DNA from: Bradyrhizobium sp. B124
GTDB lineage: Bacteria; Pseudomonadota; Alphaproteobacteria; Rhizobiales; Xanthobacteraceae
DNA: 64,000 nucleotides
Direction: 5' to 3'
Assembly: GCF_038967635.1 (NCBI RefSeq)
Contig: NZ_CP152413.1
Coordinates: 8,312,001 to 8,376,000, forward strand
Of this stretch, positions 1-51,998 are shown piece by piece. The position numbers and the translations under genes are program-made. Under the pieces are notes generated by a model, which was not told the origin of the DNA, made no database searches, and saw only the letters and a program-made list of their open reading frames with translations. Within the stretch, counting starts at the first letter, position 1; every line of letters starts with the position of its first letter.

Positions 1-192
1 ATCCTCTACCCGGGCGGCATCAGCGAAACCGAAATCCTGCTCGCCTATGGCGGCGTGCACTTCGCCAGCAAGATGGGCCAGCTCGCCGGCAATCATTTCA
101 TCACGCTGACCTCGGGGCTGGAGAACCTCACCGCGTTCGGCAAGACCGTGTTGTGGAAGGGTGCGCAGCAGATCCGTTTCGAGGAAATCTGA
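1..192 (+). CDS. DUF3830 family protein, 3' end only
   Basis: Only the last 63 codons are in the window; the gene enters from the left edge and stops with TGA at 190-192. The translated tail contains YPGGISETEILLAYGGVHF and GQLAGNHFITLTSGL, which I recognise from memory as the conserved C-terminal half of DUF3830 (cyclophilin-like beta-barrel proteins of unknown function). DUF3830 genes are often found beside amidohydrolases and ureide genes, and here the allantoinase gene starts one base after its stop, so the two are translationally coupled. No catalytic function can be assigned. Confidence 0.6.
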   Translation: MLYPGGISETEILLAYGGVHFASKMGQLAGNHFITLTSGLENLTAFGKTVLWKGAQQIRFEEI

Positions 193-193
193 T

Positions 194-1132
194 GTGACCG
201 AGGCCCGCTATCCGCGCGATCTCCGCGGCTACGGCCGCACGCCGCCCGATCCGAAATGGCCCGACGCTGCGCGTGTCGCCGTGCAGTTCGTGGTCAATTT
301 CGAGGAGGGCGGCGAGAACAACATCCTGCACGGCGATCGAGCCTCGGAGGCGTTCCTGTCCGACGTGCTGGGCGCGCAGCCCTGGGTCGGCCAGCGCCAT
401 GCCAATATCGAAACCATGTTCGAATATGGCTCGCGCGCCGGCTTCTGGCGGCTGTGGCGGATGTTCACCGAGCGGAAGTTGCCGGCCACGGTGTTCGGCG
501 TCGCGATGGCGCTGAAGCGCAATCCGGATGTCGTCGCGGCGATGCAGGAGGCGGGCTGGGATATTGCGAGCCACAGCCTGCGCTGGGTCGAACACAAGGA
601 CATGTCGGAGGACGAGGAGCGCGAGGAGATTGCCCGCGCCATTGCCGTGCATACCGAGGCGACCGGCGCGCGGCCGCTCGGCTGGTACACCGGCCGCTCC
701 TCGATCAACACGCTGCGGCTGCTGATGGAGGCGGGCGGGCTACGCTATCTCTGCGATTCCTACGCCGACGATCTGCCATACTGGATCAAGGCAGCCGGCA
801 CCGAGCCGCATCTCGTGATCCCCTATACGCTCGATGCCAACGACATGCGCTTCATCAACGCCCAGGGTTTTGGCGGCGGCGACGAGTTCTACACCTATCT
901 GAAGGACAGCTTTGACGTGCTCTACGCCGAGGGTGCGACGCGACCCAAGATGATGTCGGTCGGCCTGCATTGCCGCGTCGTCGGCCGTCCCGGCCGCGCC
1001 GCCGCGCTGATGCGCTTCCTCGATTATATCCAGAAGCACGAACGGGTCTGGGTGCCGACCCGGCTTCAGATCGCCGAGCATTGGCACGCCAATCTGAAGC
1101 ATCTCGCCGCGGACGCGTTCGAGATCGGGTAA
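194..1132 (+). CDS. puuE: PuuE-type allantoinase / polysaccharide deacetylase family
   Basis: This is a NodB-homology (CE4-fold) protein of about 312 residues. It has the PuuE signature opening YPRDLRGYGRTPPDPKWP, then VQFVVNFEEGGE, the GDRASEAFLSDVLG block and ASHSLRW. PuuE enzymes hydrolyse allantoin to allantoate without a metal, in the cytoplasm. I chose the GTG at 194, two bases after the TGA of the DUF3830 gene (TGATGTG), because GAGGAAAT lies at the right distance upstream; an ATG at 161 would lie inside the upstream gene. Length matches the family (about 300 aa). Allantoate amidohydrolase and a ureide-type importer are nearby, which supports purine/ureide use. A related cytosine/uracil-pathway deacetylase is a less likely alternative. 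Confidence 0.85.
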   Translation: MTEARYPRDLRGYGRTPPDPKWPDAARVAVQFVVNFEEGGENNILHGDRASEAFLSDVLGAQPWVGQRHANIETMFEYGSRAGFWRLWRMFTERKLPATVFGVAMALKRNPDVVAAMQEAGWDIASHSLRWVEHKDMSEDEEREEIARAIAVHTEATGARPLGWYTGRSSINTLRLLMEAGGLRYLCDSYADDLPYWIKAAGTEPHLVIPYTLDANDMRFINAQGFGGGDEFYTYLKDSFDVLYAEGATRPKMMSVGLHCRVVGRPGRAAALMRFLDYIQKHERVWVPTRLQIAEHWHANLKHLAADAFEIG

Positions 1133-1333: not shown

Positions 1334-2866
1334 CTAATGCCCGGCCATGTGCCGGCCGATCTCGGTGAGGTCGGCCTCGCTGGCGCGGGCCTCATGCACG
1401 AATGCGCCGTGGAACATCACGACCAGCCGGTCCGACAATTCCAGCAGCTCGTCGAGGTCTTCGCTGACCAGCAGCACCGCGGCGCCACGGTTGCGGGCGG
1501 CCATGATCTCGGCGTGGATCTGCGCCACCGCCGCGAAGTCGAGCCCGAAGCACGGGTTGGCGGCGATCAGCACCTCGACGTCGCCCGAGAGCTCGCGCGC
1601 CAGCACCGCGCGCTGCACATTGCCGCCCGACAGCGCCGCGATGGGGGTCTCCGGCGTGCGGGTCTTGATCTTGTAGCGGTTGATCTTGCGCTCCGCGTCC
1701 TCGCGGAAGGCCGAGCGGTTCAGCCACCAGCCGCCGCGCGCGAACGGGGCGCGGTCGAACTCGCGGAACGCGATGTTGTCGGCGACGCTCATGCCGCCGA
1801 CGCAGGCGTTCTTCAGCGGCTCCTCCGGCAGCAGTGACATCTTGTGGCGGCGCATCTCCTCGCGGCTTGCCGCATAGGTTTCGCCCTGGACGCGGATCAC
1901 GCCGCCCTCGGATTCGCGCTGGCCGGCCAGCACCTCGACCAGCTGGCGCTGGCCGTTGCCGGAGACGCCGGCGATGCCGACGATCTCGCCGCTCTTCACC
2001 GTCAGCGACACGCCGTGCACGGCGATCGCGCCGGCATCGTCGAGCGCGGTGAGCTTGTCGAGCTCGAGCCGGGGCGCGCCGGTCTCGCCGGTGCGCGGCG
2101 GCTGCACCGTCAGCTGTTCGGCGCCGATCATGGTGCGGGCCATCTCGTCCGGCGTGAGATCGGCGACCCGGCCGGTGCCGGCGAGCTTGCCGCGGCGCAG
2201 GATCGTGACGTCATCGGCAAACGCCATCACCTCGCGGAACTTGTGCGTGATCATCAGGATGGTCAGTTCACCCGCGACCACCATGGCGCGCAGCATGCCG
2301 AGCACCTCGTCGGCCTCGCCCGGCGTCAGCACCGAGGTCGGCTCGTCCAGGATCAGGAAACGGCGCTTCAGATAGAGCTGTTTGAGGATCTCGCACTTCT
2401 GCCGTTCGCCAGCGGAGATGTCGGAGACTTTCGCGTCGAGCGGCACCTTGAACGGCATCCGCGCCAGGAAAGCCTCGAGCTCTTTCTTCTCCTTGCGCCA
2501 GTCGACCATGGCAGGCACGTCATCGCGCGCCAGCACCAGGTTCTCGGCGACCGTCATCGCCGGCACGAGGGTAAAGTGCTGGTAGACCATGCCGAGCCCG
2601 AGCGCATGCGCATTCTTGGGATTGGCGATGGTCTGCTGGCGGCCGCCGACCAGGATGTCGCCTTCGGTGGCGTGGTAATAGCCCATGATGCATTTCACGA
2701 GCGTGCTCTTGCCCGCGCCATTCTCGCCGAGCAATGCGTGGAACGAGCCGGGCCGCACCTTGAGCTCGACATTGTCGAGCGCTACGAAGTCGCCGAACCG
2801 CATCGTCATCGCGATGGCGTCGACGCCGAACGCGCCTGAAGGGGCGGCCGGTTCGCCGATGATCAC
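1334..2866 (-). CDS. Nucleobase/ureide ABC importer, double ATP-binding subunit
   Basis: 510 residues with two fused ABC ATPase domains, as in the YufO/XylG-like ATPases of BMP-type importers. Domain 1 has Walker [10 protein letters not shown], signature SAGERQK and Walker [13 protein letters not shown]. Domain 2 has a degenerate P-loop GVSGNGQRQ, a signature-like [14 protein letters not shown] and an altered Walker B ([11 protein letters not shown]), so site 2 probably does not hydrolyse ATP normally, as is usual for this family. The GTG start at 2866 overlaps the biuH stop by 4 bases (GTGA). Last gene of the operon binding protein-permease-permease-biuH-ATPase. Confidence 0.9.
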
Positions 2867-3546
2867 GACAGCGCCCCGATCAGGTCGGCGGATTTGGTCA
2901 CCGCGCCGAACACGCCGCCCTGCATCTTGATCATCTTCAGCGCGTGATCGTGATTGCTCCTGTCGGTCGCGCCGCAGCAATCCTCGACCAGCACGCATTC
3001 GAAGCCGCGGTCATTGGCCTCGCGCATCGTGGTGTGGACGCAGACGTCGGTGGTGATGCCGGTCAGCACGATGTTCTCGATGCCGCGCAGCCGCAGCATC
3101 AGCTCGAGGTCGGTGGCGCAGAACGAGCCCTTGCCGGGCTTGTCGATAACAGGTTCGCCCGGCAGCGGCGCAAGATCGGGGATGATGTCCCAGCCGGGTT
3201 CGCCGCGCACCAGGATGCGGCCGCAGGGGCCGGGATCGCCGATGCCGGCGCCGATCTGGCGCGAGCGCCAGCGCTTGTTGTCGGGGAGGTCGGTAAGGTC
3301 GGGCCGGTGGCCTTCGCGGGTGTGGATGATGTGAAAGCCCTGCGCACGCATCACCGCGAGCAGTTTCTTGATCGGCTCGATCGGCGCCCGCGTCAGCGAC
3401 AGATCGTAGCCCATCTTGTCGACATAGCCGCCGACACCGCAGAAATCGGTCTGCATGTCGATGATGATGAGCGCGGTGTTTTGCGGCCGCAGGTCGCCAT
3501 TGTAGGGCCAGGCGTAGGGCTCGGATTTGATGAAGCGCTCGGGCAT
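2863..3546 (-). CDS. biuH: Biuret amidohydrolase (isochorismatase-like cysteine hydrolase)
   Basis: 227 residues of the isochorismatase-like fold. The catalytic triad is visible as D30 (IIIDMQTDF), K136 (IDKPGKGSF) and C169 ([12 protein letters not shown]), with Q209 in KMIKMQGG. From memory the Rhizobium leguminosarum biuret hydrolase has D36, K142, C175 and Q215, a constant offset of six residues, and the surrounding sequence ([22 protein letters not shown]) matches closely. BiuH hydrolyses biuret to allophanate and ammonia. The gene lies inside a BMP-type importer operon, 17 bases after the second permease gene and overlapping the ATPase gene by 4 bases, under a sigma-54 promoter at 6784-6798. 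No allophanate hydrolase gene is in the window. A different carbamoyl-amide substrate is possible. Confidence 0.85.
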
Positions 3547-3563
3547 GGAATGATCTCGCTCGT

Positions 3564-4490
3564 CTATCGGGTGATGGACAATTCGGCGGGCGCGCCGGTC
3601 AGCGTGCGCTTCGGCGAGCAGGTGATGATCATGATCGCCAGGGTCAGGATGTAGGGCGCGGCGTTGAACAAATGATAGCCCGAGGTGATGCCGACCGATT
3701 GCAGCGCAGGCCCGAGCGCGGCGGCGCCGCCGAACGCGAGCGAGGCCCACAGGCACAGCATCGGGTCCCAGCGCGCGAAGATCACCAGCGCGACCGCAGT
3801 GATGCCCTGTCCCGAGGAGAGCCCTTCGTTCCAGCTGCCGGGATAGAACAGCGACAGGAACGAGCCGCCGATGCCGGCGAGGAAGCCGCCGACCATGGTG
3901 GCGCGCAACCGGATCAGCAGAACGGAGTGGCCCATCGCGCGCGCCGCGTCAGCGCTTTCGCCGGCGGTGCGGATCAACAGGCCCCAGCGCGTGGTCCTGA
4001 ACGCCCAATAGAGCAGCGGTGCGATCGCGACGCCGATCAGGAACAGCACGTTGATGCGCAGCGCCGCGCGCACCTGCGGCACGTCGCTCCACCAGCCGAA
4101 ATCGATCGCCGGCAGCCGGGCCGCCGTCGGCTCGATCAGCGGCTTGCCGAGAAAGAAGGCGAGGCCGGTGCCGAGCAGCATCAGCGCGATGCCGACTGCG
4201 ATATCGTTGACCCGCGGCAGCGAGCAGATGCCGGCATGCAGCGCGCCGAACAAGGCGCCGGTGATCCCGGCCGCGAGCACACCTAGCCATGGCGAGCCGG
4301 AGAGATAGGAGATGCCGTAGGCGCTCATCGCGCCCATCACCAGCGTGCCTTCGAGGCCGAGATTGATGCGGCCGCTTCGCTCGGTGATGCACTCGCCGAG
4401 GCTGACGAACAGGAACGGCGTCGAGACGCGGATGGCGCCGCCGAACACGGCGAGCGGGACGGTCCAGAGCCCGAGCGAGCTATCTGCCAT
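3564..4490 (-). CDS. Nucleobase/ureide ABC importer, permease subunit 2 (YufQ-like)
   Basis: 308-residue inner-membrane protein with about eight hydrophobic segments and the family motif [16 protein letters not shown] ([12 protein letters not shown]), typical of the second permease of BMP-type importers such as YufQ/NupQ. It starts one base after the stop of the first permease gene and is followed by biuH. It would form the channel heterodimer with the product of 4492-5601. Substrate is inferred from context only (nucleoside, nucleobase, ureide or biuret). Confidence 0.88.
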
Positions 4491-4491
4491 G

Positions 4492-5601
4492 TCAGGACTT
4501 TCCCTTCAGGAAGCCGATCCGCCCATAGAGCGCGTCGCTTGCCAGCACGAACACGAAGATGATGCCTTGCAACACCAGCACCGACGCATCGGGCAGGCCG
4601 AGCCGCCGCTGCAACAGGCCGCCGGAGGCCGAGATGCCGCCGAGCAGGATCGCGACCGGAATGATCGCGAGCGGATTCTGCCGCGCCAGGAATGCGACCA
4701 GGATTCCGGTGAAGCCGTAGCCCGCGGCGAGGTTGGCGTTGGTGCGGCCCTGCACGGCCGCGACCTCGATCATGCCGGCTAGTCCCGCGCTGCTGCCGGC
4801 GAGGAAGCAGACGGTCAGGATCAGCTTGCCGACGGAAAGCCCCACGATCTTGGCGGCGCGGATGTTGCCGCCGGCGACGCGCGCGGCGAAGCCGAAAGTG
4901 GTGTGATAGATCAGGATGTAGGCGGCAACAGCCGCGACGAGGCCGAACACCAGGCCCCAATGCACGTCGGTGCCGGGAATGCTGCCGATCATGTTGGCGG
5001 CGCCGATCTCGCGCGTCGACGGCTTGTTGAGGCTCGCCGGATCGCGCATCGGCCCTTCGACCAGATGGTTCAGAATCGCGAGCGCGATATAGACCAGCAG
5101 CAGGCTCGAGATCGTCTCGTTGACCCCGCGATATTGCCGCAAGCCGCCGGACAGCGTGATCCAGAGGCCGCCGCCGATCATGCCCGCGATCACCATCGCG
5201 GTCTGCACGACGATCGGTGCCGCGCCCTGCAGCGCCAGCGCCGCCGATGTCGCCGACAGCGCGCCGATCAACAGCGCGCCTTCACCGCCGATGATCACCA
5301 TGCCGAGCTGCGCCGGCAGCGCCGTGCACAGCGCAGTCAGGATCAAGGGCGCTGCGCGGGTCAGCGTGTTCTGCCAGGAGAACCAGGTGCCGAAGGCGCC
5401 GTAATACATGTAGAAATAGAGGTCGAGCGGGTTCTTGCCGTACAGCGCGATGAAGCCGCCGAACACCGCGAGCGCGCCGACCAGCGCCGCGCCCGGAATC
5501 AGGATGTATTCGATGCTCGCGCCGTAGCGTTGGAGGAAGCCGGGATCGGCGGCCGGAGCAACGCCGGCCGCCTCCACCGATTCCGCCGCCTCGGTCGTCA
5601 C
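4492..5601 (-). CDS. Nucleobase/ureide ABC importer, permease subunit 1 (YufP-like)
   Basis: 369 residues: a hydrophilic Glu/Ala-rich N-terminus, then multiple membrane spans. It carries the YufP/NupP-type block GGEGALLIGALSATSAA and the cytoplasmic-loop sequence VNETISSLLLVYIA. I chose GTG at 5601, which overlaps the TGA of the binding-protein gene by 4 bases (GTGA), so the two are translationally coupled. It is the partner of the permease at 3564-4490. Confidence 0.88.
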   Translation of the reverse strand: MTTEAAESVEAAGVAPAADPGFLQRYGASIEYILIPGAALVGALAVFGGFIALYGKNPLDLYFYMYYGAFGTWFSWQNTLTRAAPLILTALCTALPAQLGMVIIGGEGALLIGALSATSAALALQGAAPIVVQTAMVIAGMIGGGLWITLSGGLRQYRGVNETISSLLLVYIALAILNHLVEGPMRDPASLNKPSTREIGAANMIGSIPGTDVHWGLVFGLVAAVAAYILIYHTTFGFAARVAGGNIRAAKIVGLSVGKLILTVCFLAGSSAGLAGMIEVAAVQGRTNANLAAGYGFTGILVAFLARQNPLAIIPVAILLGGISASGGLLQRRLGLPDASVLVLQGIIFVFVLASDALYGRIGFLKGKS

Positions 5602-6707
5602 GCGGTGGCTCCGATCACGCCCTCGACCAGATAGTCCATCTTTTCGAGCTCGGGATCCTGCTGGCCGCGGTCGGTGCCGGAAGCGATCACCGTCTTGCCC
5701 TTGTTGTCGACCAGCGGGCCCTTGAAGATCGCGTACTCGCCGGACATGAACTTGGCCTTGACGTCGTCGGCATGTTTGCGGGCTTCCGCCGAGACCATCT
5801 CGCCATAGGGTGAGACCTTGACGATCTCTTCCTTCAGGCCGCCGCGGTAGAAGTTCGGGATCGCTTCGCCCGCGGTGATCATCTTGACGAATTTCGGATA
5901 GAGCGCTTCCCAGTTCCACTCGGCGCCGGTGAGATAGGCCTTCGGCGCCAGCGGCGACTGATTGACGTGATAGCCGCACACCATCGCGCCACGGCGCGCG
6001 GCGTTCTCGACCATCGTCTTCGGTCCGTCGACATGGCAGGTCAGCACATCGACGCCCTGGTCGATCAGGCTGTTGGTGGCCTCGGCTTCCTTGACCGGCA
6101 TCGACCAGTCGCCGGTGAAGATCACCTGCGTCGTCGCCTTCGGATTGGCGAGCCGGGCGCCGAGCGTGAACGCGTTGATGTTGCGCAGCACCTGCGGGAT
6201 CGGCTTGGCCGCGACGAAGCCGAGCTTGCCGCTCTTGGTGGAATAGCCGGCGACGATGCCGGAGATGTATTGCGCCTCGTCGATATAGCCGAAATAGCTG
6301 CCGGCGTTCTTCGGGTCCTTGTCGGACCACAGGCCGCCGCAATGCTCGAAGTGCATCTTCGGAAACTTGCCCGCCATCTTGACGACGTGCGGGTTGTAGT
6401 AGCCGAACGAGGTCGGAAACAGCAGCGTGGCGCCGTCGAGATTGATCATGGACTCGATGGTCTTCTCGACCGCGTCGGTCTCCGGCACCTTCTCTTCCTC
6501 GACCACCTTGATGCCGGGAAGCTTCTTCAGCGCCGCCGCGCCCTGAGCGTGGGCCTGATTGTAGCCGTAGTCGTCGCGCGACCCGACATAGATGAAGCCG
6601 ACCGTGGTTTCCGCTGCCGCCGCGCGGCGAACGCCGAGCGTGCTGCCGAGCGCCAATGCCGCGCTTCCCTGCAATAAATGCCTTCTTGAAATCCTGCCAA
6701 AATCCAT
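5598..6707 (-). CDS. BMP-family periplasmic binding protein of the nucleobase/ureide importer
   Basis: 369 residues of the basic-membrane-protein (BMP/Med) family that bind nucleosides and related purine compounds. The N-terminus GRISRRHLLQGSAALALG is a twin-arginine-type leader ending near RRAAAAE; there is no lipobox, so it is probably a free periplasmic protein. Then follow VGFIYVGSRDDYGYN and later DVLTCHVDGPKT, as usual for the family. ATG at 6707 was chosen because it begins the leader; upstream in-frame sequence has no leader character. First gene of the operon; a sigma-54 promoter lies 77-91 bases upstream. Confidence 0.9.
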   Translation of the reverse strand: MDFGRISRRHLLQGSAALALGSTLGVRRAAAAETTVGFIYVGSRDDYGYNQAHAQGAAALKKLPGIKVVEEEKVPETDAVEKTIESMINLDGATLLFPTSFGYYNPHVVKMAGKFPKMHFEHCGGLWSDKDPKNAGSYFGYIDEAQYISGIVAGYSTKSGKLGFVAAKPIPQVLRNINAFTLGARLANPKATTQVIFTGDWSMPVKEAEATNSLIDQGVDVLTCHVDGPKTMVENAARRGAMVCGYHVNQSPLAPKAYLTGAEWNWEALYPKFVKMITAGEAIPNFYRGGLKEEIVKVSPYGEMVSAEARKHADDVKAKFMSGEYAIFKGPLVDNKGKTVIASGTDRGQQDPELEKMDYLVEGVIGATA

Positions 6708-6783
6708 CGCCTGCTCCCTCCGGCGGGGCCGACCCGCCTGTCCTTGTCGCAGCCGCCGTAACGGCGGCGCGTGACGGAGTGTC

Positions 6784-6798
6784 GCAAGCTTCGTGCCA
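6784..6798 (-). promoter_or_regulatory. Sigma-54 (-24/-12) promoter of the BMP importer / biuH operon
   Basis: Read on the minus strand this is TGGCAC-N5-TTGC, an exact match to the core RpoN consensus with the invariant GG and GC dinucleotides 12 bases apart. Transcription should start near 6772, giving a leader of about 65 bases before the ATG at 6707. It implies activation by an enhancer-binding protein such as NtrC under nitrogen limitation. I did not find a clear NtrC box by eye. Confidence 0.85.
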
Positions 6799-7078
6799 GA
6801 GCACATTTGGCGGTCATGGTTCTGTAAGCGACTGAATATGAATGCGAATAGTAATCAATATGGGCGGCCTGCGGAATCGGCAGATTCCGAGTTGCCTATT
6901 TGATGAGCTATCAATCGTCGTTGTATGCAATGCCGTTAAGCAGTCGCTAACCCCCGGACGGCCGATGCGAGCCCCGCCGGGGGCGGCGTCAGGACGCCAT
7001 TTGCCGGCTGGTCAATCGGACCGGGCCTGCTACGAGTGAACCGGGCCCAGGTGGCGGGTCGGACTGATGGGAAACAGC

Positions 7079-8350
7079 ATGAGCGAGAAGAAACCGTCCG
7101 CGAAACCGGCCTCCCTTGGCGACGGCATCGTGGCGCGGATCGATCAGCTCGCGGCGATCTCGGAGACGCCGGAGCATCTGGCGCGCGTCTTCCTCACTGA
7201 CGAGCATCGCAAGGCGGCCGATCTCATCCTGTCCTGGATGCGCGAGGCCGGCATGAGCGCGCATCTCGATGCGATCGGCAATGTCTGCGGCCGCTACGAG
7301 GGTGAGCGGCCGGCTCTGCCGGCCCTGATGCTCGGCTCGCATTACGACACCGTGCGCGATGCCGGCAGATGGGACGGCCCGCTCGGCGTCATCACCGCGA
7401 TCGCCTGCGTCGCCGATCTGAACCGGCGGGGCAAGCGGTTGCCGTTCGCGATCGAGATCGTGGGCTTCGCGGACGAGGAGGGCGTGCGCTTTGCGTCGAC
7501 CCTGCTCGGCAGTCGCGCGGTGGCCGGCACGTTCGACGAGAGCGTGCTCAACACGCGCGATCGCGCCGGCACGTCGATGCGTGACGCGCTGGTCGCCTTC
7601 GGGCTCGACCCCGATCATATCGGCAAGGCGGCGCGCGCCCGCCGCGAGCTGCTCGGTTACGTCGAGCTACACATCGAGCAGGGCCCGGTGCTGGAACAGA
7701 AGGCGCTGCCGGTCGGCGTCGTCACCGCCATCTCAGGTGCGACGCGGCTTGCCGCCAATCTCACCGGCGTTGCCGGCCATGCCGGCACGGTGCCGATGCC
7801 GCTGCGGCGCGATGCGCTGACCGGCGCCGCCGAATGCATCATTGCGATCGAGCAGTTTTGCCGGAGCGATGAAGCCGGCCTCGTCGGCACCGTCGGCTAT
7901 ATCAGCGCCATGCCCGGCGCCACCAACGTGATCCCCGGGAAGGTGTCGTTCACGATGGACATCCGCTCGCAGAGCGACATGCATCGCAAGCGTGCGGTCG
8001 CCGACATCGTGCGGCAGATCGAGGCGATCGCCAAGCGCCGCGAACTCACGTTGCAGATCGACGTCACCCACGAGAACCGCAGCGTGCCCTGCGCGCCATG
8101 GCTGAAAGCGCAGATCGCCGAGGCGGTCGCAGCCGAGGGCCATGCCGTGTTCGAGCTGCCGAGCGGAGCCGGGCATGACGGGATGGCGATGGTCGACGTC
8201 GCCGATATCGGCATGATCTTCGTGCGCTGCCGCGGCGGGATCAGCCACAATCCCGCCGAGCATGTCGAACTCGCCGACGCCGACACCGGCGCGCTTGTGC
8301 TGCTGCGCTTCATCGAGAATTTTCATCCGCACGGTGCAGTGAATAGCTGA
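7079..8350 (+). CDS. M20-family allantoate / N-carbamoyl-L-amino-acid amidohydrolase
   Basis: About 423 residues of the M20 Zn-dependent amidohydrolase family (AllC/HyuC group). Metal-ligand motifs are visible: GSHYDTV, the DGPLGV aspartate, ADEEG, HIEQGPVLE and the C-terminal GISHNPAE histidine. The lid domain contains GVAGHAGTVPM. Expected chemistry is release of carbamoyl nitrogen from allantoate or carbamoyl-amino acids. ATG at 7079 has GGGA six bases upstream; another in-frame ATG is at 7067. The gene is divergent from the importer/biuH operon and close to puuE, which favours allantoate. The 370-base divergent gap holds the sigma-54 promoter at 6784-6798 and nothing else I can name. Confidence 0.8.
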   Translation: MSEKKPSAKPASLGDGIVARIDQLAAISETPEHLARVFLTDEHRKAADLILSWMREAGMSAHLDAIGNVCGRYEGERPALPALMLGSHYDTVRDAGRWDGPLGVITAIACVADLNRRGKRLPFAIEIVGFADEEGVRFASTLLGSRAVAGTFDESVLNTRDRAGTSMRDALVAFGLDPDHIGKAARARRELLGYVELHIEQGPVLEQKALPVGVVTAISGATRLAANLTGVAGHAGTVPMPLRRDALTGAAECIIAIEQFCRSDEAGLVGTVGYISAMPGATNVIPGKVSFTMDIRSQSDMHRKRAVADIVRQIEAIAKRRELTLQIDVTHENRSVPCAPWLKAQIAEAVAAEGHAVFELPSGAGHDGMAMVDVADIGMIFVRCRGGISHNPAEHVELADADTGALVLLRFIENFHPHGAVNS

Positions 8351-12349: not shown

Positions 12350-12367
12350 CCGCGCCGGGGCGGCTAC
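12346..12367. terminator. Bidirectional hairpin spanning two convergent stop codons
   Basis: GTAGCCGC at 12346-12353 pairs perfectly with GCGGCTAC at 12360-12367 around a six-base loop. The left arm includes the TAG of the yeiH-like gene and the right arm includes the TAG of amiF on the other strand. No T-run follows on either side, so termination efficiency is uncertain. Confidence 0.55.
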
Positions 12368-13377
12368 TCGGCGGCCTTCGCGGTCTTGCCGAACATCCGT
12401 GTCGGTGCGGGAAAGCCGCAGGACGTGCCGTCGGTGATCTTGACCTGATCTTCCCACGGCAGGCGGAAGCGGCCTGACACCATGTCCTGCATGAAGGTGT
12501 AGGGACAATCCATCGCGCCGCCTTTCACCGCGACATAGCCGCGGTGCCAAAGCTGATAGATATTGTTCTCGACGCCCCAGTTGATCCGCGCCTCGCGCAC
12601 GAGGTCGGGCCGCACCTCGGCGGTGATGATCTCGTCGGCCCGTCCCGTGGTGCCGTGCGCGATGATGCTGCCGTCGAAATTGACGATCATGCCTTCGCCC
12701 ATCGAGTCGAACGACCCGTCCGAGCCGCACATGCAGACATTGGCCGTCACCATCAGGTTCTGGAACGCGTTGGCCTGGTTGGTGAAGCGCCAGCTGTCGC
12801 GGATCGGCGCGGTGTAGCCTGCGGTGCGGATCATGATCTCGGCGCCCTTGTAGGCACATTCGCGCGCCATTTCCGGGAACATGCCGTCGTGGCAGATGAT
12901 CAGCGCGATCTTCGCGCCCTTCGGTCCGTCGATCACGGGAATGCCGACATCGCCCGGCTCCCACGGCTCGACCGGAATCCAGGGATGGAATTTGCGGTAA
13001 TAGAGCTTGATCTCGCCGTGATCGTCGATGATCAGCCCGGAATTGTAGGGGTTGCCGTGCGGGTTTAACTCCATGATGGAGAAGCAGCCCCAGATCTTGT
13101 TGTCGATGCAGGCCTGCTGGAAGGCCGCGACTTCGGGGCCGTCGAGCCGGCACATGATCTCCGGATTGGTATCCATCGAGAGCCCGTGCAGCGAATATTC
13201 CGGGAATACGACAAGATCCATGGTGGCGAGATTGCGCCGCGCCTTGCCGACCATCCAGACGATGCGCTGGGTCTGCCGCGCCAGATCGGCTTTGGTCGCC
13301 ACCACGGGCAGCTGCAGCTGCACCAGTCCGATCACCACGCCGTTGGGTGACTTGTTGAGGCCGCCAAGTCCATTCAT
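12364..13377 (-). CDS. amiF: Formamidase (nitrilase superfamily)
   Basis: 337 residues of the aliphatic amidase branch of the nitrilase superfamily. The triad is E60 (VVFPEYSLHG), K129 (YYRKFHPW) and C162 (LIICHDGMFPE). The overall layout, including PYNSGLIIDD, EPWEPGD, WGVENNIYQLWHRGYVA and LPWEDQVKI, matches Helicobacter pylori AmiF as I remember it better than the larger amidase AmiE. It should hydrolyse formamide to formate and ammonia in the cytoplasm. ATG at 13377. A sigma-54 promoter at 13465-13479 drives it, and it is divergent from a second isochorismatase-like hydrolase with its own sigma-54 promoter. Confidence 0.88.
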   Translation of the reverse strand: MNGLGGLNKSPNGVVIGLVQLQLPVVATKADLARQTQRIVWMVGKARRNLATMDLVVFPEYSLHGLSMDTNPEIMCRLDGPEVAAFQQACIDNKIWGCFSIMELNPHGNPYNSGLIIDDHGEIKLYYRKFHPWIPVEPWEPGDVGIPVIDGPKGAKIALIICHDGMFPEMARECAYKGAEIMIRTAGYTAPIRDSWRFTNQANAFQNLMVTANVCMCGSDGSFDSMGEGMIVNFDGSIIAHGTTGRADEIITAEVRPDLVREARINWGVENNIYQLWHRGYVAVKGGAMDCPYTFMQDMVSGRFRLPWEDQVKITDGTSCGFPAPTRMFGKTAKAAE

Positions 13378-13464: not shown

Positions 13465-13479
13465 GCAACGATCATGCCA
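13465..13479 (-). promoter_or_regulatory. Sigma-54 promoter of amiF
   Basis: On the minus strand this reads TGGCAT-N5-TTGC with the GG and GC dinucleotides 12 bases apart, a strong RpoN match. The predicted start is near 13453, about 75 bases before the amiF ATG. The gap 13378-13672 between the divergent genes holds this promoter and the one at 13618-13632, pointing outward. Confidence 0.8.
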
Positions 13480-13617: not shown

Positions 13618-13632
13618 TGGCACGCGGTTTGC
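13618..13632 (+). promoter_or_regulatory. Sigma-54 promoter of the second isochorismatase-like hydrolase gene
   Basis: TGGCAC-N5-TTGC, an exact core RpoN consensus with correct 12-base GG-to-GC spacing, followed by T as preferred. Transcription would begin near 13644, about 29 bases before the ATG at 13673, and the Shine-Dalgarno-like GGGGG falls within this leader. Confidence 0.87.
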
Positions 13633-13672: not shown

Positions 13673-14347
13673 ATGGCGAACACGAGGACAATCGCGGCGG
13701 AGCCGGCGCCGATCACGCTCGACTGGAGCAAGACCGCGCTCGTCATTATCGACATGCAGCGCGATTTCATGGAGCGAGGGGGCTTCGGCGAGACGCTCGG
13801 CAATGACGTCAGCCAGCTCGCCCGCGCGGTGCAGCCGATCGCGGCCGTCCTCGCCGCGGTGCGCGACGCGGGCTTGCTCGTGGTTCATACCCGCGAGGGC
13901 CATCTGCCCGATCTCTCCGACGCGCCGCCGGCGAAGCTCGAGCGCGGCGCGCCGTCCTTGCGGATAGGCGATCCCGGTCCGATGGGGCGGATCCTGATCC
14001 GCGGCGAGGCGGGGCACGACATCATCCCCGAGCTTTATCCGCTCGACAGCGAGATCGTGATCGACAAGCCCGGCAAGGGCGCGTTCTACGCCACCGAATT
14101 CGGCGACATCCTGCAGAAATACGGCATCGAGAATCTGCTGGTCTGCGGCGTCACCACCGAAGTCTGCGTCAACACCACGGTGCGCGAGGCCAATGACCGC
14201 GGCTATCGCTGCGTCGTGATATCAGACGGCTGCGCGTCCTATTTCCCCGAATTCCACGAGATGGGCCTGAAGATGATCAAGGCCCAAGGTGGCATTTTTG
14301 GTTGGGTCGCCGAGTCTGCCGCGGTGCTGGAGGCGCTCGCTGCGTAG
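13673..14347 (+). CDS. Isochorismatase-family amidohydrolase, biuret-hydrolase paralogue
   Basis: 224 residues. The triad is D27 (VIIDMQRDF), K132 (IDKPGKGAF) and C165 ([12 protein letters not shown]), and KMIKAQGG keeps the glutamine seen in biuret hydrolases. It shares [30 protein letters not shown] and REANDRGY with the biuH product at 2863-3546, but lacks its WPYNG lead and has a shorter loop before GDPGP. So it is a paralogue, possibly for biuret, triuret or another carbamoyl compound. ATG 13673 was preferred over TTG 13658 because GGGGG lies eight bases upstream. It is divergent from amiF. Confidence 0.8.
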
Positions 14348-50783: not shown

Positions 50784-51998
50784 TTACTTCTTCAGCCCGT
50801 AGTTCAGCAGCCCGCCCTTGTTCTTCGGCGGATGGGCGCGCAGGCCTTCCTCGTTCGGCTCGGTGCCCCAGCCCGGGCGATCCGGGATCACGAGATGGCC
50901 GTCGACGAACTCCGGCACGTGGGTGAACAGCTCGTGGTCCCAGGCCAGCCGATCGATGTCGGTTTCCATGATGCGCAGGTTCGGCACCGCCGCGCAGAAA
51001 TGCGCGTTCATCATGGTGCAGAGGTGGCCGTAGAAATTATGCGGCGCGACGTTGACCTCGAAATGCTCGGCGGCCGCGGCGATCTTCATCGACTGCCAGA
51101 CGCCGTTCCACGGCGTGTCGATAATCGCGACGTCCATCGCCTGCTCGGTGAAATAGGGCAGGAATTCGCGCAGGCCCAAAAGCGTTTCGCAGGACGAGAT
51201 CGGGTGCGGGCTCTGGCGGCGGATATAGCCGAGCGCCTGCGGATTGAAGGTGTCGATCTCGACCCAGAACATGTCCATCTTCTCGATGGCGCGCAGGATC
51301 TTGAGATAGCCTTCAGTCTTGGCGTTGAAGTTGAGGTCGAGCAGCAGGTCGACATCCGGCCCCGCGCCGTCGCGGATCGCCTCCAGATGCATGCAGAGAT
51401 TGCGCAGCACATTGCGGTCGACATTGATCTCGGGCTGGAACGGCGCGCCGAAGCCGGGACGCCAGCCTTGCGGCTTGCCGTCGGTATAGACGAAGATGTT
51501 GGTCTTCATCGCCGAGAATTTCTTTTCGCGCACCTCGGCCCCGATCGCCTTGACGCCGTCGAGATCGGTGATGGCGGGCTTGTACCAATCCGGATGATTG
51601 ATGCGCCAGGTCGCGCAATGCGACCAATAGACCCGCACGCGGTCGCGGATCTTGCCGCCGAGCAGGTCGTAGCAGGGCACGCCGAGCGCCTTGGCCTTGA
51701 CGTCGAGCAGCGCGTTCTCGATGGCACCTAACGCCAGCGCCACCACGCCGCCGGCGGCGGGGCGCGTCGCGGCGAACAGTTCCACGTAGATCCGCTCGTG
51801 CTCGAAGGCGTTCTTGCCGATTACGCGCGCCGACAGCCGCTCGATCGCTGCGGTCACGCCGGGCGCGCCGAAACCTTCGTCGTATTCGCTCCAGCCGACC
51901 AGTCCATCCGCGGTCGTCACCTTGACAAAATGATAATTCCGCCAGCCGGCATCACAGGCGAGCGTCTCGACGCTTTTGATCGTGGTGGATTTGCTCAT
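50784..51998 (-). CDS. Enolase-superfamily (mandelate racemase/muconate-lactonizing type) dehydratase
   Basis: 404 residues. Metal ligands are visible as Asp in LLLDLNFN, Glu in FWVEIDTF and Glu in ISSCETLLG; a general-base histidine lies in NVAPHNFYGH. The second Lys of the mandelate-racemase KxK motif is replaced (AMKTNIF), so it is probably a dehydratase of the galactonate/glucarate type. ATG 51998 has AGGAAACC upstream. Divergent from the CoA-transferase operon; it may act on the same imported acid. The 245-base divergent gap contains no repeat I recognise. Confidence 0.85.
   Translation of the reverse strand: MSKSTTIKSVETLACDAGWRNYHFVKVTTADGLVGWSEYDEGFGAPGVTAAIERLSARVIGKNAFEHERIYVELFAATRPAAGGVVALALGAIENALLDVKAKALGVPCYDLLGGKIRDRVRVYWSHCATWRINHPDWYKPAITDLDGVKAIGAEVREKKFSAMKTNIFVYTDGKPQGWRPGFGAPFQPEINVDRNVLRNLCMHLEAIRDGAGPDVDLLLDLNFNAKTEGYLKILRAIEKMDMFWVEIDTFNPQALGYIRRQSPHPISSCETLLGLREFLPYFTEQAMDVAIIDTPWNGVWQSMKIAAAAEHFEVNVAPHNFYGHLCTMMNAHFCAAVPNLRIMETDIDRLAWDHELFTHVPEFVDGHLVIPDRPGWGTEPNEEGLRAHPPKNKGGLLNYGLKK

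Follow-up and report, generated by a model that had tools for sequence, protein, structure and literature searches.

An importer operon enclosing a biuret hydrolase gene in Bradyrhizobium sp. B124 suggests RpoN-controlled uptake and hydrolysis of biuret and/or triuret

We analysed a stretch of 64,000 nucleotides (nt) from Bradyrhizobium sp. B124 (contig NZ_CP152413.1; hereafter, the window), in which a biuret hydrolase gene, biuH, lies inside an operon for a BMP-type ATP-binding cassette (ABC) importer. Our preferred reading, to which we give a probability of about 0.65, is that the operon is a nitrogen-starvation system that imports biuret and/or triuret, the cargo being what we infer, and hydrolyses them via allophanate. 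A dedicated uptake-and-hydrolysis route, as proposed in an earlier inspection of the same DNA (the original prediction), is thus borne out as the best reading. The sequence itself shows the order of the genes, the enzyme families, the residues of the active sites, the promoter sites, conservation and a change in the binding pocket; the points in favour are the residue sets of BiuH and of the triuret hydrolase TrtA, the matching operon around the characterised BiuH, the linkage counts, the pocket set, the proximity of trtA, the sigma-54 sites and a report on strain DOA9.

Five genes on the minus strand, from position 6707 down to 1334, form one operon in the order BMP-permease-permease-biuH-ATPase, preceded by a promoter site:

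5598-6707, minus strand: BMP-family periplasmic binding protein (369 amino acids, ATG start, PF02608)
4492-5601, minus strand: ABC permease 1 (PF02653, GTG start)
3564-4490, minus strand: ABC permease 2 (PF02653, after a 1-nt gap from permease 1)
2863-3546, minus strand: biuH, biuret hydrolase (227 amino acids, ATG start; NF050097, PDB 6azo, catalytic residues)
1334-2866, minus strand: ABC ATPase (GTG start; PF00005 in two stretches, i.e. two ABC domains)
6784-6798, minus strand: exact sigma-54 (RpoN) -24/-12 site TGGCACGAAGCTTGC, with its 5' end 91 nt ahead of the ATG of the BMP gene

All elements that the original prediction had named are present on one strand. The range it gave, 2863 to 6798, holds the BMP gene through biuH, and the operon continues with the ATPase gene to 1334. 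The translational coupling it described applies to one side of biuH, where the stop codon overlaps the ATPase start by 4 nt (GTGA); on the other side a gap of 17 nt separates biuH from permease 2, so the two do not overlap there. The BMP stop and the permease 1 start share a 4-nt overlap as well, again GTGA. With a PF02608 binding protein, two PF02653 permeases and a tandem ABC ATPase, the importer is of the BMP/PnrA type, and the N-terminus of the binding protein carries SRRHLL, which we take to be a twin-arginine-like motif. The putative B6 importer families of NCBIfam (NF047927-30) were rejected, with 53, 173, 134 and 421 bits against cut-offs of 400, 400, 465 and 670.

The sequence supports the identity of the biuH product as a biuret hydrolase well. 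It scores 421.9 bits against the NCBIfam equivalog NF050097 (cut-off 370), and its closest solved structure is 6azo, the biuret hydrolase of Rhizobium 3841 (PDB name putative amidase; E=3e-124), followed by 6xjm, deposited as biuret hydrolase (E=1.2e-105). The 3841 enzyme, encoded on plasmid pRL10, is the crystallised and biochemically characterised reference. The catalytic Asp-Lys-Cys residues D30, K136 and C169 and the substrate-binding Gln, Q209, were confirmed as originally listed, and the other biuret-contacting residues that the relevant passages of PMC5806882 give for the enzyme of known structure also stand at the expected positions. Judged by the residues that distinguish BiuH from TrtA, as set out in part of PMC7948467, the window protein has the BiuH-type second shell (Y41, Y47, D167, V212); the same type occurs at the tested columns in 80/80 biuH loci that we compared, the nearest named ones being from Bradyrhizobium (96-97% identity). 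RutB was rejected for either isochorismatase of the window (117.6 and 114.5 bits, far under the cut-off of 378).

These 80 loci are the best-scoring among the matches listed, and their genes were found mechanically with tblastn and longest frames. In 67 of them biuH is embedded in the importer operon (BMP-permease-permease upstream, ATPase downstream, same strand). Contig ends truncate six unlinked loci (L039, L040, L044, L048, L069, L077), L078 has biuH and an ATPase gene but nothing matching a permease in its 2.1 kb of upstream DNA, the importer of L041 is divergent and that of L095 incomplete by the thresholds used. Because this sample leans to close relatives, we added a phylum-wide draw, in which BiuH was found at E<=1e-75 in 26 of 398 genomes, and a BMP-first draw (44 BMP genes in 142 genomes of the same class); the samples overlap, some genomes apparently being shared (e.g. 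L144/L038, L146/L052, L192/L051). The phylum-wide draw yielded 25 biuH genes besides that of the window, 23 of them embedded in an importer operon. In the BMP-first draw, 10 of the 11 genes with at least 54.9% identity, the window included, stood beside biuH, and the eleventh (L152) meets a contig end 148 nt on; at 54.1% identity or less the count was 0/33, with less than 5 kb of DNA downstream in 6 of these 33. The idea that the linkage is unusual is not supported, given both the 23/25 count and its publication for nitrifiers in the passages of PMC12625717 on their gene content. That paper annotates the importer next to biuH as one for nucleosides, which would suit a historical accident in which a nucleoside importer merely happens to enclose a hydrolase gene that has nothing to do with it; we regard this as extremely improbable.

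The nucleoside-type context assumed originally does not match the structural comparison, either. By sequence and fold, the solved relatives closest to the binding protein are 3s99 and AtzT, a binder of guanine and s-triazines; nucleoside binders come after these two, and a nucleoside importer was rejected on a fold comparison that ranks 3s99 and AtzT first among the families in Foldseek's list. (A homolog search, whose best 120 listed matches are all close relatives, supplied four alignment rows.) The window protein keeps the aromatic clamp of AtzT (Tyr45/Trp194, here Y49 and W201) and Ser97/Phe98 (S100, F101). The guanine-contacting Glu165 and Asn218/Asn220 are replaced by Q172, H225 and D227, so we class the protein as an AtzT relative and do not file it as a guanine binder. 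Replacement of Glu165, nearly always by Gln, extends to 34/34 distinct biuH-linked BMPs of our tree, and E is kept in 27/33 distant BMPs of the BMP-first draw. The complete pocket set, YSFQNWHD, recurs in 22 of the 23 linked BMPs of the phylum-wide draw. In sequence comparison, the biuH-linked binding proteins form a clade within the nucleobase/s-triazine-binding type, nearest to AtzT.

Two further genes, 7 kb from the operon and absent from the original prediction, form a divergent pair in which each gene has its own sigma-54 site:

13673-14347, plus strand: trtA-like triuret hydrolase gene (224 amino acids; best PDB match TrtA 6xix, E=6.8e-84)
13618-13632, plus strand: sigma-54 site TGGCACGCGGTTTGC before trtA, exact TGGCAY-N5-TTGC
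12364-13377, minus strand: formamidase (AmiF) gene, divergent from trtA (NF009803, 584.8 bits, cut-off 406; PDB formamidases 5g3o and 2dyu)
13465-13479, minus strand: sigma-54 site TGGCATGATCGTTGC before the formamidase gene, exact TGGCAY-N5-TTGC

TrtA is recognised by F35, N41, E160 and I205 besides D24/K129/C162/Q202. The F, N, E and I of this set are all found in the window trtA product, as they are in 57/57 trtA-type sequences of the 80 loci (>50% identity, >180 amino acids). Residue types and PDB matches together indicate that hydrolase genes for biuret and for triuret are both present in the window. Elsewhere, 43 of the 67 linked operons have trtA no more than 3.5 kb downstream and 49 have it somewhere in the locus; atzF occurs somewhere in the locus in 33 of the 67. 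As a separate observation, a cupin gene of about 118 amino acids, mostly just 3' of trtA, occurs in 35 of the 80 loci (0 Bradyrhizobium-type) and in the biuH operon of strain 3841; in L054, L062, L082 and others it lies about 2.9 kb past biuH. It is a candidate, nothing more, for the carboxybiuret decarboxylase TrtB and perhaps handles carboxybiuret.

The formamidase gene invites a different view of the importer, namely a general nitrogen-scavenging pump for small amides and ureides, formamide included, with biuret as one of many cargoes. In 19 of the 67 linked operons, as in the 3841 operon, permease 2 and biuH do have a formamidase gene between them, and the formamidase gene of the window has the sigma-54 site listed above. 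Set against this, the gene is not found at that position in the other 48, and formamide is very small and permeates membranes. Moreover, the clamp conserved in the window protein holds, in AtzT, a planar ligand of ring size, according to the part of PMC6834077 on Y45/W194. Overall, we consider such a pump improbable.

RpoN control of the window operon is well supported by promoter sequences. The exact site at 6784-6798 that the original prediction had reported is indeed there, and the window contains only three exact copies of TGGCAY-N5-TTGC, those before the BMP operon, trtA and the formamidase gene (0.27 expected; 0/100 shuffles reach three). For the stricter TGGCAC-N5-TTGC there are 2 against 0.19 expected (1/100 shuffles reach 2). 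Across the whole 9.17-Mb genome, 42 such sites compare with 20 for a reversed control pattern, so that about half of them could be chance. Conservation provides a further test: 41/67 linked operons have an exact TGGCAY-N5-TTGC in the 300 nt that precede the predicted BMP start, compared with 0.02/67 expected from mononucleotide shuffles, and all 20 Bradyrhizobium-type loci (L018-L037) have it 88-93 nt ahead of that start. An exact site is missing there from many operons of Rhizobiaceae and Rhodobacterales. The trtA promoter is also conserved, judging from exact sites before 6 of the 8 stand-alone trtA genes scored (4/4 Bradyrhizobium-type: L018, L019, L021, L022). Stand-alone formamidase genes had one in 2 of 7 cases, L019 and L021, where they also neighbour trtA, and none before the gene in L020, L023, L025, L029 and L032. 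A single gene for the allophanate hydrolase AtzF exceeds the cut-off in the genome (match start 4811956), with a TGGCAC-N5-TTGC site upstream at 4811762-4811776; by arithmetic, a 300-nt same-strand stretch would hold one of the 42 sites with a chance of ~0.0007. A simple motif scan of two intergenic regions for NtrC sites gave no convincing site.

A transcriptome study of Bradyrhizobium sp. DOA9 points the same way. In the sections of PMC13207237 concerned, BMP gene 51377 has an identical RpoN site at -73 and is down-regulated in rpoN mutants together with permeases 51378 and 51379, isochorismatase genes 51380 and 41390, and amiE. Gene 41390 carries an RpoN site of its own, TGGCACGGCGCTTGC, at -37, and 51382 is listed there as a deaminase. 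This numbering fits the order in 16 of the 20 Bradyrhizobium-type loci, where a deaminase gene comes after the ATPase gene. From the identical promoter and the gene numbering, rather than from sequence, DOA9 51377-51382 looks like the orthologous operon. The authors file these genes under carbon metabolism, transport and virulence-like functions; the word biuret does not occur in the article text, and the gel shifts described there included an 'ABC-transporter' promoter.

Taken as a biuret/triuret route, the system would work as follows. Nitrogen limitation would trigger RpoN-dependent transcription, presumably through the activator NtrC, of importer and BiuH together. The binding protein, an AtzT relative with a retuned pocket, would capture a ureide that is small and planar, biuret and/or triuret being the most likely, for the two permeases and the ATPase to carry inward. 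BiuH would then convert biuret to allophanate and ammonia, and TrtA would convert triuret to carboxybiuret, which decays to biuret. Finally, AtzF, encoded elsewhere in the genome behind the same type of promoter, would split allophanate.

Several observations weigh against this reading. Four biuH genes have no adjoining importer despite full 10-kb flanks (L047, L049, L080, L087), 2 of the 25 in the phylum-wide draw (L209, L210) have no partner nearby at all, and 18 of the 67 linked operons have no trtA in the locus. No exact sigma-54 site was found in 11 of the 23 phylum-draw operons or before any of the 17 stand-alone atzF genes scored in the 80 loci, none of which is Bradyrhizobium-type; a conserved atzF promoter was therefore dropped. 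AtzT itself, in the binding data given in PMC6834077, has guanine as its preferred ligand (0.11 uM), and its binding of cyanuric acid is weak (340 uM). The searched literature, with most subscription papers outside it, yielded no recognised binding or transport measurement for biuret or triuret import. Lastly, the Bradyrhizobium operon adjoins an allantoate gene, which is compatible with another ureide. Its two neighbours, both outside the operon, are:

7067-8350, plus strand: allantoate amidohydrolase gene, divergent (NF006775, 572 bits, cut-off 479)
161-1132, plus strand: allantoinase PuuE gene, convergent (TIGR03212, 527.8 bits, cut-off 424.6); longest frame, true start probably further in

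Directly before PuuE, window positions 1-192 hold the end of a DUF3830 gene.

With these flanking genes in mind, the importer could instead take a compound of the purine or s-triazine type (urate, xanthine, guanine, cyanuric acid or allantoin), BiuH and TrtA processing breakdown or side products. The closest solved binder takes guanine and 2-hydroxyatrazine, atzD is part of the 3841 operon, an AtzD/TrzD-family gene occurs elsewhere in the genome, and triuret is tied to urate oxidation in the literature (in part of PMC7948467). This explanation nevertheless seems unlikely to us. The replacement of AtzT Glu165 throughout the linked BMPs speaks against it, the window operon has no atzD, and the allantoin-pathway neighbours are bound to one lineage: the allantoate gene (at least 50% identity) occurs in 17/20 Bradyrhizobium-type loci versus 0/60 others, PuuE in 1/20 versus 0/60. 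Allantoin as sole cargo was rejected, as its neighbour genes occur, among the 80 loci, only in those of the Bradyrhizobium type. The AtzD/TrzD-family gene (5138138-5139232; 499.7 bits, cut-off 153.1; 49% to Rhizobium AtzD) encodes a cyanuric acid hydrolase or barbiturase and, by eye, adjoins a uracil phosphoribosyltransferase-like gene.

Other importers of the family also came to light. The closest paralogous importer in the genome (L111, 7560130-7564811; BMP 53%, permease 66%, ATPase 54%) has the pocket FSFNSWQD, no biuH in the 16 kb covered and, by eye, sugar-acid-catabolism-like neighbours. In a second one (L110, 1901659-1911414), the BMP, 29% identical to that of the window, is directly followed by an isochorismatase-type hydrolase gene (275 amino acids, 39% to BiuH), with AllG-type and carbamate-kinase-like genes nearby by eye; this is possibly an oxamate/ureide unit. 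L153 has a distant BMP (40%) whose pocket contains Q (YSYQSWQD), followed after ~0.7 kb by an isochorismatase-type gene (34% identical); this may be a further pair of importer and hydrolase. In 16 Bradyrhizobium-type loci (L020, L022-L036), the gene 3' of the ATPase gene encodes a CDA-type deaminase. A few kb beyond it, in L022-L036, lies a second BMP importer with an E-type pocket, near an amidohydrolase that by eye resembles 8-oxoguanine deaminase (15 loci). Neither the deaminase nor the second importer adjoins the window operon; the genome has an E-type importer and such a deaminase at 5.14-5.15 Mb (L112).

Going beyond the biuret/triuret route itself, we tentatively propose, at somewhat less than even odds, that the biuH-linked BMPs constitute a distinct ureide importer family. 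A purine-binding ancestor would have been converted by the Glu-to-Gln change, so that folded, planar triuret or biuret is clamped as a purine mimic, and the Bradyrhizobium RpoN regulon (importer-biuH, trtA, formamidase and the distant atzF) would span everything from uptake to ammonia. Such a single regulon, if real, would fit triuret from urate oxidation at plant roots as a genuine natural nitrogen source. Biuret and triuret reach soils with urea fertiliser and may arise naturally from urate. Given the pocket signature and the tight linkage to biuH, a single purified protein would suffice for a direct test of the cargo, and the answer could correct the 'nucleoside transporter' annotation in rhizobia and perhaps in nitrifiers.

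Among known systems, the closest is the biuH operon on pRL10 of R. johnstonii (leguminosarum) 3841, where a GntR regulator gene is followed by BMP-permease-permease-formamidase-biuH-atzD-ATPase-trtA-cupin. It shares with the window the gene order, trtA, formamidase and the pocket YSFQNWHD (identities: BiuH 78%, BMP 62%, formamidase 80%; 57% between its second cysteine hydrolase and the window trtA product), and it too is preceded by an exact sigma-54 site, TGGCACATGCATTGC, with the 5' end 70 nt ahead of the annotated BMP start. In contrast to the window, it contains atzD, for cyanuric acid hydrolase, between biuH and the ATPase gene, and formamidase and trtA are inside the operon, not in a divergent pair 7 kb away. 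Since the same operon surrounds the 3841 BiuH, that of the window is its Bradyrhizobium form, and separation from cyanuric-acid genes, presented originally as distinguishing, is no such mark, given the same arrangement with atzD inside. The locus tags pRL100348-353 returned no paper in the searched literature. In ammonia oxidisers, the passages of PMC12625717 describe biuH, trtA, atzF and bmpA-nupABC together in bacteria, and biuH with bmpA-nupABC in archaea. These contigs resemble the window in collocating biuret and triuret hydrolase genes with a BMP importer; they differ in that the importer is called a nucleoside transporter, with no biuret cargo assigned and no promoter analysis in those passages. 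The atzRSTUVW genes of Pseudomonas sp. ADP, as PMC6834077 describes them in part, likewise encode a nucleobase/s-triazine-type BMP importer under sigma-54 control and adjoin degradation genes that yield allophanate. Unlike the window operon, they have no hydrolase gene inside the importer genes in that description, and AtzT, with E165/N218/N220, binds guanine and 2-hydroxyatrazine, whereas the window protein has Q172/H225/D227. TrtA of Herbaspirillum sp. BH-1, from the sections of PMC7948467 on it, shares its residue set with the product of 13673-14347 and is its best PDB match; there, trtA clusters in operons with biuH and atzF, whereas in the window 10 kb separate biuH from trtA, which has a promoter of its own. 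The window operon thus belongs to a widespread and already known kind of operon and is not exceptional; what our analysis adds is the trtA and formamidase genes with their sigma-54 sites, the Gln-pocket clade and the link to the RpoN data of DOA9.

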